This document shows positions 5,335 to 63,806 of a stretch of DNA of 64,000 bases, in pieces. Both the position numbers and the translations under genes were made by a program. This DNA comes from Magnetococcales bacterium. Its GTDB lineage: Bacteria > Pseudomonadota > Magnetococcia > Magnetococcales > UBA8363. The notes under the pieces were generated by a model, which saw nothing but the letters and a program-made list of their open reading frames with translations, did not search any database and was not told where the DNA came from. The stretch is taken from contig JADGCV010000001.1 of the NCBI GenBank assembly GCA_015228815.1, positions 124,001 through 188,000 of the forward strand, given 5' to 3'. How positions within the stretch are numbered: the stretch's first letter is position 1; each line of letters opens with the position of its first letter.

Positions 5335-5377
5335 TCCCAGACTGAACGACCACCCGTTCTGGTCCTGATATATATTA

Positions 5378-5769
5378 AACTATTGAAAGAAAAAAGGGGT
5401 CTGGGGGATTGCCCCCAGGGTTTTGATTTTGACTTTGTTTTTCCACGCGCCATTTCACCCGAAGCGGTTTCTCGCGTGGTTTTCGCGAGAAACCGCGTAG
5501 GCGCGCGCCTTGGTCCTGGTCTTTTCGCGGTTTTTGCGAAAAGACCAGGACACATTGCAAGTTTCCAGGCAACACAACGCGCAATGGGTCTGTCTTCCTT
5601 CGCAAAAAACGCGAAGAAAAACAGGCCAAGGGGCGTGTCTATGCAAGATTCCCGCAAAAACCACGCGGGAATCTTGCTTCGGGTGAAATGGCGCGTGGAA
5701 AAACAAAGTCAAAACCAAAATCAAAACCCTGGGGGCAATCCCCCAGACCCCTTTTTTCTTTCAATAGTT
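5378..5769. repeat. nested 392-bp intergenic palindrome with four internal hairpins
   Basis: The outer arms are 5378-5465 and 5676-5769. They are near-perfect inverted copies of a sequence that begins AACTATTGAAAGAAAAAAGG and contains GGTCTGGGGGATTGCCCCCA. Inside lie four stem-loops. H1 is 5464-5496 (13-bp stem, 7-nt loop), H2 is 5513-5551 (16-bp stem, loop GGTTTTT), H3 is 5598-5616 (6-bp perfect stem, extendable with mismatches, loop AAAAAAC) and H4 is 5643-5677 (13-bp stem, loop AAAAACCAC). H1/H2 and H3/H4 are in mirror orientation. It lies between two convergent genes. Open frames here are by-products of the palindrome. Confidence 0.85.
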
Positions 5770-5779
5770 TTCAAGAATC

Positions 5780-7702: not shown

Positions 7703-7781
7703 CAAAAAAACCAGACCCCTCTTTTTTTTCAATAACCTTGAACACGGAGAGGACCCGAATCGCTACCAACAAAACAAAAGC

Positions 7782-7830
7782 CTGGGGCGTTGCCCCAGAC
7801 CCCACTGGGAAGGGGCCAGCCCCTTCCCAG
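7782..7830. repeat. paired GC-rich hairpins (dispersed repeat family)
   Basis: Two adjacent stem-loops. CTGGGGCGTTGCCCCAG is at 7782-7798. At 7805-7830 a 26-base element pairs CTGGGAAGGGG with CCCCTTCCCAG. The same two hairpins with the same spacer recur at 63750-63806. The pair sits between pnp and the TPR-glycosyltransferase gene on the minus strand and could terminate or process pnp transcripts. Confidence 0.7.
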
Positions 7831-36491: not shown

Positions 36492-36592
36492 GAGCGGGCT
36501 CCATGCAGGCGGGTTACAGGATGGGACATCTTATAGGCAATTGTTTCAAGCGATGCAATCTTCGATGCGGGACAATCGCGATGGAAATTCGC

Positions 36593-36642
36593 GACTGCCC
36601 AGGTACCTCTGGGTTCAATTATTGAAAGAAAAAAGGGTCTGA
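36593..36642. repeat. partial copy of the dispersed repeat
   Basis: GACTGCCCAGGTACCTCTGG is followed by GTTCAATTATTGAAAGAAAA and AAGGGTCTGA. It matches the left arm of the 60438 repeat, including its CTGCCCAGGTACC segment, but has no inverted partner. It lies between fumA and the downstream minus-strand gene. Confidence 0.65.
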
Positions 36643-42487: not shown

Positions 42488-45400
42488 CTACAGCCAGTTG
42501 CCCATGAGAATGAAGGGGGCCCAGTAGTAGGGATGGGCGTGGGAAGGATCGGGAGAAGGATCCCGTCGAAGGGGGGCATCCATCGACACTGGCGTTGTCC
42601 GAGAATCGTCGCTCTTATTCCCTTCGCCGCGAATGAATGCCGTCATGGTACGTTGCAATGCCTCCGCCTTGGTCAGTCGCTCCACTTCCCGCCGGCGGTA
42701 GAAATCCGCCATGAATCGTCCCGTGGAGGCATCGTCCACGGGCCAGAGGGTGGCGAGCACCGCCGCCGCTCCCTTGTGTTGGGCAAGTGCCCCAAACCCC
42801 TCTACCTCCCGTCCCTGGGCATCGGTTCCGCCCACGGCCGTCTCGCAGGCCGACAGGGTCAGCAGATCCACGTCGTGAAACCGGTCCTTTCCACGTTTGA
42901 ACTCGGCCAGGGTCAATCGCTTTCCTCCTCCGAGAAGCAGAAAAGAGTCCATCTCCGTCCCCGGACGAAAGTCGAAGTGGCTCGCGATATGGAATACCTG
43001 GCTCTTCGCCAATGCCATGGTTTTCTTCAGTGTGGTGTCGTCGAAGGCCTCATCGAGATGCACTTTACCTGGAAGCACCCCTCGGGTATCTCCGGCGCCC
43101 TCAAGGATGATGGCGTCGAGTTCGTCCCGCACCGCCGGCAGCGGAACCAGGTGTTCACCCCCGCCAGTACTGACCCCGAAGCCGGCGACCCGCCACATAC
43201 CGGACGGACTTTGCCATCCGCTGGCACCACCGGCGACGGTGAAAAGGGTGACCGGGTGTTTTTCGATGAGCCACCGCTCCCCATCATGGAGCGCCGCCAG
43301 GGGAAGATAACGAAGGCTTCCCGTCAGGGAGACCATCAAGGTGGCATTGACGGGAAGATCCGCCGCGACCGGTCCGATCAGGAGATCATACCATTCCTTC
43401 GCCATGGGTTTCGGGTCGTTTTCAGGATCGGCGAACAATTTTCTCGATTGGATCACCCGTTCGGCAAGGTCGGCAAGGGTCACCGGCGCCGAACGGGTCA
43501 CGATCGTTTCTGGGGTGATCACCAGAATGCGCAGCCGATCCGTGCCGGGAAGATAGTTCAGGACCACGACACTGTGTCCCATTTTTTCCAGTGCATTCTG
43601 CAATCGGCCAAGGTCTGTCCGATCCGTCTCGTTGAAGGCGACCGCATGGGCCTTGTCTCCGGCCTTTCGGAAAGCCTCGCGAATCTCCACAAGATGGTGT
43701 TGGAAATCCTCGACCGCATTGGCGATAACAGCGTCGAGGGCCAAAAGTTGCCGTTCCTGTTCGGGTGTGCGTACCTTGAGTCGGGCCAACGGTACGCGCT
43801 TCTTTCCCAATACCCCGAGCCGCCGTAAACGTTCTGTCAGTCCCTCCTCCAGGGGTTGTTCGAAGAGGGCGAAGGGAATCACGGAGTTCCGGGGGTCTTT
43901 TCCCAGGTCGCGGCGTATATAGTCGAAATATTCCTCTTCCTTCAACATTGCCAGCACCCGTTCCGCCTCCATCAGCCGCCCCTGGTCGATGAGACGGTGC
44001 GCCAGCCCTTCGTATACCCCCTTCTTGTCGGTCAGGAAGGTTCTTTGCAGGTCCTTTTCCATTCCGGAGATTCCTCCCCGAAGCTTCTGGACGATATTGA
44101 CCGCCCGCTTGCCGAAGAAAATCGCGCTGCCAGGGTCCCCGAGCTTTTCGAACAGTTGACTCATGCTGTATTCCACGCGCCACTGCAATTCCGGGTTTTG
44201 GGCGTTTATGGCGAGGGCCAGGGCGCGACCGTGGAGCGGCTCCGCCTTGTCATGAGCGCCCATGGCCTGGTATAGCAAGGCCAGATTGTTGAGGCTCCAG
44301 ACGGTATCGGGATGGTCCGGCCCCAGGGTTTGCTCCCGGATCGCCAGGGCACGTCTGTACAAGGGTTTCGCTCTGGCATGGGCCCCCATGTCCTGGTAGA
44401 GAACGGCCAGATTGTTGAGACTTGCGGCAGTATCGGGATGTTTTGCTCCCAGGATTTTCTCCTGGATCGCCAGGGCTTCCTTGAAGCGGGATTCCGCTTT
44501 GTCATGGTTTCCCATGTCCTGATAGAGCGTGCCCAGATTGACGAGGCTTATGGCGGTGTCGGGATGATCCGGTCCCAGCGACTTTTCACGGATCGCCAGG
44601 GCGTGCCTGTAGCGGGACTCCGCTTCGGCGTAGGCGCCCATGTCGTGGTACAGCACGGCCAGATTGTCAAGGGTCGTGGCAGTACGGGGATGATCTGTCC
44701 CGAGCGACTTTTCCTTGACGGCCAGGGCCTGCCTGAGAAGGGACTCCGCAGCGGAATAACTGCCGATGTTCTTGTACAGCATTGCCAGGTTGTTGAAACT
44801 CGTGGCGGTATCGGGATGATCCGGTCCCAGGGACTTCTCGCGAATCGCCAGGGCACGCTTGTAGCAGGACTGGGCCTCGTCCTGGTCACCCATGTCCTGA
44901 TAGAGCAAGGCCAGATTGTTGAGACCCGTGGCGGTCTGGGGATGATCGGGTCCCAAGGATTTTTCCCAGATCGTCATGGCGCGTTGGGCCAGGGGGAGCG
45001 CCGCAATCGGGTTGCCCATTTCCCGGTAGAGCATTGCCAGGTTGTTGAGGCTTGTGGCGGTATCGGGATGATCCGGTCCCAGGGTGTTTTCCCGGATGGT
45101 CAGGGCGCGTTTGTAACTGGATTCCGCCTCGGAAAAGGCACCGATGTTCTTGTTCAGCGAGGCCAGGTTGTTGAGGCTCCTGGCGGTGTCGGGATGATCC
45201 GGTCCCAGGGTGTTTTCCCGGATGGTCAGGATACGCCGGGCCAGGGGGATTGCCGCAGCGTGGTTTCCCATTTCCTTGTGCAGCATGGCCAGATTGTTGA
45301 GGCTGACGATGGTATCGGGATGATCCGGTCCCAAGGTGTTTTCCCGGATTTCCAGGGCGCGCCGGGCCAGGGGAAGCGCCGCGGAGAACTGTCCGGCGTG

Positions 45401-53419: not shown

Positions 53420-53487
53420 AAAACTATTGAAAGAAAAAAGGGGTCTGGGGAATTGCCCCCAGACCCCTTTTTTCTTTTAATAGTTTT
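53420..53487. terminator. palindromic repeat / bidirectional terminator
   Basis: A 31-bp inverted repeat (one mismatch) with arms AAAACTATTGAAAGAAAAAA/GGGGTCTGGGG and its complement around a short loop. Each strand has a G/C stem followed by a U-run. It lies between the convergent lsrF-like and lipoprotein genes. It is the simplest member of the dispersed family seen at 5378-5769 and 60438-60604. Confidence 0.85.
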
Positions 53488-60365: not shown

Positions 60366-60390
60366 CGGAAAAGGGAAACCCCAAAAGTTT

Positions 60391-60604
60391 GGTAACCGCC
60401 CAGGCCGCTTTCGGGTTTAATTATTGAAAGAAAAAAGGTAACTGCCCAGGTACCCCCCGGTTCGAGATTATTGAAAGAAAAAAGGGGTCTGGGGGTACCT
60501 GGGCAGTGACGCAAAATCAAAAACAAAATCAAAACCCTGGGGGCAATCCCCCAGACCCCTTTTTTCTTTCAATAATCTCGAACCGGGGGGGGCTGGGCAG
60601 TTAC
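60391..60604. repeat. compound palindromic repeat, convergent intergenic
   Basis: The left arm 60438-60494 and right arm 60549-60604 are inverted, about 56 bp each, with mismatches only near GGTACC/GGGGGC. A further copy of the GTAAC.GCCCAGG....ATTATTGAAAGAAAAAAG unit precedes it (60391-60436). GTACCTGGGCAGT (60495-60507) can pair with ACTGCCCAGGTAC within the left arm, giving an alternative fold. Loop: a gap with CAAAATCAAAAACAAAATCA and family sequence. It lies between convergent prmB and glyS. Confidence 0.85.
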
Positions 60605-60620
60605 GTCTTCTGGAAGTCAC

Positions 60621-63726: not shown

Positions 63727-63806
63727 AGTCAAAAACAAAATCAAAACCTTGGGGCGTTGCCCCAAACCCCACTGGGAAGGGGTTTCCCCTTCCCAGACCC
63801 ATCCAT
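63727..63806. repeat. dispersed repeat with paired hairpins
   Basis: AGTCAAAAACAAAATCAAAA then CCTTGGGGCGTTGCCCCAAA, followed by CTGGGAAGGGG-TTT-CCCCTTCCCAG. It closely repeats the 7782-7830 element and the A-rich arms of 5700-5740 and 60510-60535. It lies between divergent glyQ and waaA, so it is in a promoter region, unlike most copies. Confidence 0.7.

Follow-up and report, generated by a model that had tools for sequence, protein, structure and literature searches.

The palindrome at positions 5377-5770 of the window, by which we mean the whole 64,000-nucleotide stretch that was analysed, represents one of many dispersed, non-coding copies of a repeat. The best explanation, to which we give a probability of about 0.66, is that it belongs to the MITE class, the miniature non-autonomous transposable elements, in Magnetococcales, an order of magnet-sensing bacteria, and is of IS66 type at least in part. 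Such elements are already known as a kind; the variant is new. Bacterial miniature elements are usually simple hairpins or deletion remnants of transposons. Here the stem sequences of a branched palindrome turn over among congeners, yet its shape is kept, and several copies lie inside transposon ends. The family offers a natural series for studying the survival of long palindromes in bacteria and selection on the DNA fold itself. No paper describing it was found in a limited literature search.

Structure and dispersal of the repeat

The window copy is a nested palindrome of 394 bp with four internal hairpins. It had first been noticed in a reading of the sequence alone, and its arms reach slightly further, to 5377-5770, than that reading had placed them. 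The outer arms of about 90 bp, already recognised as inverted copies, resolved into two overlapping pairs, 5377-5442 with 5705-5770 (66 nt, 94%) and 5421-5465 with 5676-5720 (45 nt, 98%), which combine to about 90 bp per arm. The loops TGGTTTT and GGTTTTT, said to face AAAAAAC and AAAAACCAC, were located in hairpins H1, H2, H3 and H4, respectively. We also found features that had not been described: a separate hairpin in each terminal arm (5401-5418 and 5729-5746), a fifth short inner stem between H2 and H3, nested outer shells, IS66-type ends, and facing-hairpin stems that are usually of different types. The copy lies between two convergent genes for TPR proteins, whose stops are about 45 and 12 bp away. 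Its parts are as follows, with the strand given where a feature has one.

5377-5770: the complete nested palindrome (window copy)
5381-5399, plus strand: left end motif TATTGAAAGAAAAAAGGGG
5401-5418: left terminal hairpin CTGGGGG-ATTG-CCCCCAG, terminator-like on both strands
5419-5445, plus strand: spacer of GATTTT/GACTTT/GTTTTT hexamers, whose number varies among copies
5446-5463: core outer stem, 5′ side, partner 5678-5695; paired in 96% of cells, two-sided change at 5 pairs
5464-5496, plus strand: hairpin H1, type C stem GCGGTTTCTCGCG, loop TGGTTTT
5497-5513: middle stem, 5′ side, partner 5626-5642; 90% paired
5514-5550, plus strand: hairpin H2, loop GGTTTTT; 98.5% paired, 8 pairs with two-sided change
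5551-5588: central loop with the short inner stem (about 5551-5560/5579-5588); paired in 83% of cells, two-sided change at 6 pairs
5589-5625, plus strand: hairpin H3, loop AAAAAAC; 97% paired
5626-5642: middle stem, 3′ side
5643-5677, plus strand: hairpin H4, type A stem GCAAGATTCCC, loop AAAAACCAC; main helix paired in 100% of cells, two-sided change at 7 pairs
5678-5695: core outer stem, 3′ side
5696-5728, minus strand: hexamer spacer, inverted
5729-5746: right terminal hairpin, inverted copy, terminator-like on both strands
5748-5766, minus strand: right end motif, inverted copy

In its own 4.2-Mb genome, a search with the whole element gave 97 matches, which fall in about 40 places, among them several contig ends. 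The end motif pattern TATTGAAAGAAAAAAGGGGT matched 187 times with at most two mismatches, while its reversed control matched 0 times; this census was complete for contig C1 and was extended to sampled stretches. All seven congeners carry matches, and relatives are also present in several other Magnetococcales families. The exact 30-base end motif occurred in at least 120 stretches of the genome collection, and the titles listed were all Magnetococcales bins. The sequence-only reading would have been undermined by a lack of other copies and of conservation in close relatives, or by arms that were an assembly artefact. The copies within and between genomes contradict the former. The palindrome is not an assembly artefact either, because many copies with differing flanks lie inside contigs and the family is also present in a single-contig complete genome. 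The family accounts for many contig breaks in these draft genomes. A viral, plasmid or phage origin was dropped, since the 23-base end motif had no exact match among viral contigs and plasmid and phage records gave no blastn match.

The repeat is modular. Singlets of its ends were seen, as were 58-bp hairpins made of them, and the ends also flank either a second, shorter core or the four-hairpin core. Three further relatives lie in the window.

36591-36640: fragment with a degenerate GTAAC-type repeat GCGACTGCCCAGGTACC and the end motif
53420-53487: short relative with both ends and no core, a nearly perfect hairpin between convergent genes
60390-60605: relative lacking the four-hairpin core, in which the end motif is nested with outer repeats of GTAAC type

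At the orthologous site downstream of the left gene, shorter relatives were found in the congeners G002 and G004 and none in G003 and G006, and the gene on the far side differs between species. The site is thus polymorphic. The sequence-only reading had suggested a mobile non-coding element, a recombination target or a structured RNA; the first of these was supported by the high copy number, by this presence and absence at an orthologous site and by target duplications of 8 bp in sister copies.

Terminal repeats and target duplications

Many copies are enclosed by a further inverted repeat beginning GTAAC. Where both ends were intact, exact 8-bp direct repeats flanked four full copies and one 72-bp relative.

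L066: ACGCCTGG
L069: ACAATATA
L072: AAAAATAT
L078: GCTGAGGC
L067:8703-8774, the 72-bp relative: GAATATAT

The repeat AAAAATAT of L072 lies within the last codons of a gene, and removing the insert in silico restored the frame VAARKIKKYGNK-stop. A search of the congeners for the empty site of this insertion gave no orthologous match. IS66 elements make 8-bp repeats and have ends that begin GTAA (PMC11946415). Genes for IS66-family transposases are present in 8/8 genomes of the genus. At locus L140, the end of such a gene is followed by ACGGGGGGGTACCTGGGCAGTTAC, which is the outer repeat of the palindromes, and the repeat after the transposase end matches GTAACTGCCCAGGTACCC exactly. Locus L135 holds a 1737-bp IS66 element with GTAACTATTCAG ends and a duplication agreeing at 7/8 positions. 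The genome of the window has only a fragment of an IS66 transposase gene, which may reflect loss or the draft assembly. It seems that an IS66-type transposase acted in trans on the GTAAC-ended copies.

The sister copies therefore resemble IS66-family MITEs in their GTAA-beginning terminal inverted repeats, their 8-bp duplications (8/8) and the congener IS66 transposases with matching ends. They differ in that the interior is a large, conserved, branched palindrome, which is also found in copies with other ends or no recognisable ends. The window copy itself differs further, as it has neither such ends nor a clear target duplication. Its flanks showed no recognisable GTAAC end (best P = 0.02 in ten uncorrected tests), and we therefore file it only as a relative of IS66-derived MITEs. 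Most end-motif clusters on contig C1 are likewise without GTAAC ends. Such copies, the window copy included, might have lost their ends or might have spread by another route, for example by exchange at shared arms or with other terminal repeats.

In G004 and G005, another candidate terminal repeat, TAGGGYGTGTTGACATTC, encloses or borders the palindromic core (loci L093-L101). As the core adjoins this repeat there, IS66 cannot explain all copies; it explains a subset, and the core is joined with more than one kind of end.

Two other arrangements were noted. One copy in G002 (L083:7483-8001) is centred in a 68-nt inverted repeat beginning TTCTACTTTGTTACATTC, which also occurs beside copies in G003. 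At L105:19710-19827, the palindromic core inside GTAAC-type repeats is a different one, CATTCCCTGCTACAGCAGGAATC, and there is no 8-bp duplication that matches.

The fold of the core

The palindrome is predicted to fold strongly as RNA on the plus strand (-290.5 kcal/mol vs -121.2 for shuffles, z = -32) and on the minus strand (z = -29), and as DNA (z = -28). We aligned 27 cores from six genomes, oriented by the H2/H3 arms. A branched fold, running in the order outer stem, H1, middle stem, H2, inner stem, H3 and H4, paired 94% of cells in the 27 cores. Comparatively, a linear single hairpin, with H1 paired to H4 and H2 to H3, paired 82% of cells, and three of its column pairs failed in 27/27 cores, a worse fit. 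Two-sided changes occurred at 46 pairs of the branched fold and in 321 cells, against 34.8 and 119.5 in shuffled alignments and 6-53 cells in slid controls. The shuffles keep relatedness and the structure was partly read from the same sequences, so the slid controls are the stronger comparison. Compensatory base changes are thus present in the proposed stems. In the oriented alignment, the stem pairs comprised 1431 Watson-Crick, 21 GT, 10 AC and 4 other pairs. It had been proposed that stems differing in sequence around like loops reflect selection on geometry, and the compensatory changes agree with a conserved stem geometry. Across the alignment, hairpin sequences change but the four-hairpin shape is kept.

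The stems of H1 and H4 are of three types in the genome of the window, and all three combinations occur. The two stems were the same in 0/11 full copies of this genome (chance 0.02 to 0.05) and in 1/11 copies of G004, G005 and G007 (chance 0.02). With one exception among the 22 copies tested, this inequality is moderate evidence, the copies being related. Selection might have favoured the branched fold or acted against long perfect palindromes, and either could leave the stems unlike. That H1 rarely shares the stem of H4 argues for a fold with two stacked four-way junctions and against one long hairpin. In the cell, the core would reach this form as single-stranded DNA or as a cruciform, and the stacked junctions would keep the 390-bp palindrome from becoming one perfect hairpin.

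The inverted terminal repeat of AAV type is likewise a palindrome that folds with side arms unlike in sequence, and not as a single hairpin. Neither a viral gene nor a replicon is present here, and the likeness is one of shape only. Repetitive hairpin-forming elements of sponge mitochondria (PMC2800124) are also dispersed, non-coding and possibly mobile. In those elements it is the loops that are substituted and the stems that are conserved; the present repeat shows the reverse, with conserved loops and stems that vary with compensation.

Distant relatives and alternative explanations

Elements in other Magnetococcales families resemble the repeat in layout, as judged by eye, and differ greatly from it in sequence: they combine T-rich hexamers and a G+C-rich stem with a terminal hairpin and with one or two hairpins whose loops are G/T-rich. 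A simple MITE would not usually keep one architecture across a whole order. In the complete genome G018, which begins dnaA-dnaN-recF, a related element carries two hairpins in its first half, and its second half is different and tandemly repeated. At L280:1185-3286 of this genome, tandem arrays have units of 118 bp, about 344-376 bp and 33 bp. On its contig C1 (loci L296-L313, with dnaA in L314), all 24 related loci lie at -0.62 to +0.82 Mb of dnaA, that is, within 0.83 Mb of the replication origin. The loci number 21 after merging. A post hoc test gave P of about 1e-9 for the arc and about 2e-7 for the Rayleigh statistic. A query with the second half agreed with this clustering. No match to the G018 element was found in G029, of the same genus, or in G025, of the same family.

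An alternative is an order-wide family in which the branched DNA fold would itself be the recognised feature. The facing arms would be kept different and the loops complementary, with a possible loop-loop contact; the fold would be the substrate of an enzyme or of a chromosome-organising protein, and transposon-like ends would have been acquired secondarily. We regard this explanation as unlikely, though worth keeping in mind. If it were true, no sign of it would be clearer than the clustering of loci near the origin in G018.

It is improbable that the repeat is a REPIN-like element, moved by a Y1 (RAYT/TnpA-REP) transposase that recognises the hairpin ends as single-stranded DNA. The layout does recall one, with two inverted end hairpins around a core and decaying singlets; singlets, short doublets and cored doublets occur together, and the hairpin ends and the structure are compatible with a single strand. 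REPINs and BIMEs with their RAYT genes (PMC3116915, PMC8266576) are similarly inverted pairs of short hairpins round a spacer, present between genes in many copies, as singlets and doublets. They differ from the present repeat, for which no linked Y1 gene was found and which has a four-hairpin core and, in several copies, 8-bp duplications, a feature of DDE transposases. Y1_Tnp genes are present in 7/8 genomes, but the end motif was absent from the flanks of every Y1 locus examined, unlike the case of RAYT genes, and no repeat-flanked, linked transposase gene was seen at these loci. Linkage to a RAYT gene was dropped because no end motif lies near the Y1 genes examined. The genome of the window has one Y1 gene, and none was seen in G003 (a 74% complete genome), which is rich in the element.

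There is an equally small chance that the element is a structured non-coding RNA or a transcript-level element selected for its RNA fold. The strong fold, the compensatory changes and the conserved loops are what a structured RNA, as suggested in the sequence-only reading, would show, and copies lie near the 3′ ends of genes. The GT pairs slightly exceed the AC mismatches (21 to 10 in the oriented alignment), but this is a weak test and the excess is small. Against these points, the two strands fold almost equally, GT pairs are few in the hairpin stems, where nearly every pair is Watson-Crick, and no promoter-like site was found. The window had no Rfam match at the gathering threshold, and a known RNA family was dropped on that ground. 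A DNA-level structure is likelier than a structured RNA, because of the equal folding of both strands, the rare wobble pairs and the lack of an Rfam match.

It is more doubtful still that the repeat is a selected terminator or mRNA 3′-end element, multiplied because it helps host genes. The window copy lies between convergent genes, and G+C-rich hairpins followed by T tracts were found at four sites (1.0 expected), by consensus match only, so that both ends carry terminator-like hairpins on both strands. Under the transposable-element explanation that we prefer, the two terminal hairpins would likewise act as bidirectional terminators beside gene ends. However, enrichment between convergent genes was suggestive and short of significance (9/30 vs 40/222, P = 0.08), depletion between divergent genes was not significant (P = 0.22), termination has no need of a four-hairpin core, and copies interrupt a gene end.

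Least probable of all is a chromosome-organising site, in which a host protein would recognise the branched DNA as a binding signpost: it would fit the origin-proximal position of 24/24 loci in G018, but that pattern was seen before it was tested, the orientation of the loci has no polarity from the origin (13/24), G029 and G025 have no match, and the copies in the draft genome of the window are spread over many contigs.

Two other kinds of repeat were observed in the window. Positions 7771-7815 and 63738-63782 hold copies, 91% alike, of another dispersed hairpin repeat, TGGGGCGTTGCCCCA followed by CCCCACTGGGAAGGGG. Tandem repeats of 126 bp occupy 44217-45398, within a gene whose protein product has many TPR-like repeats.
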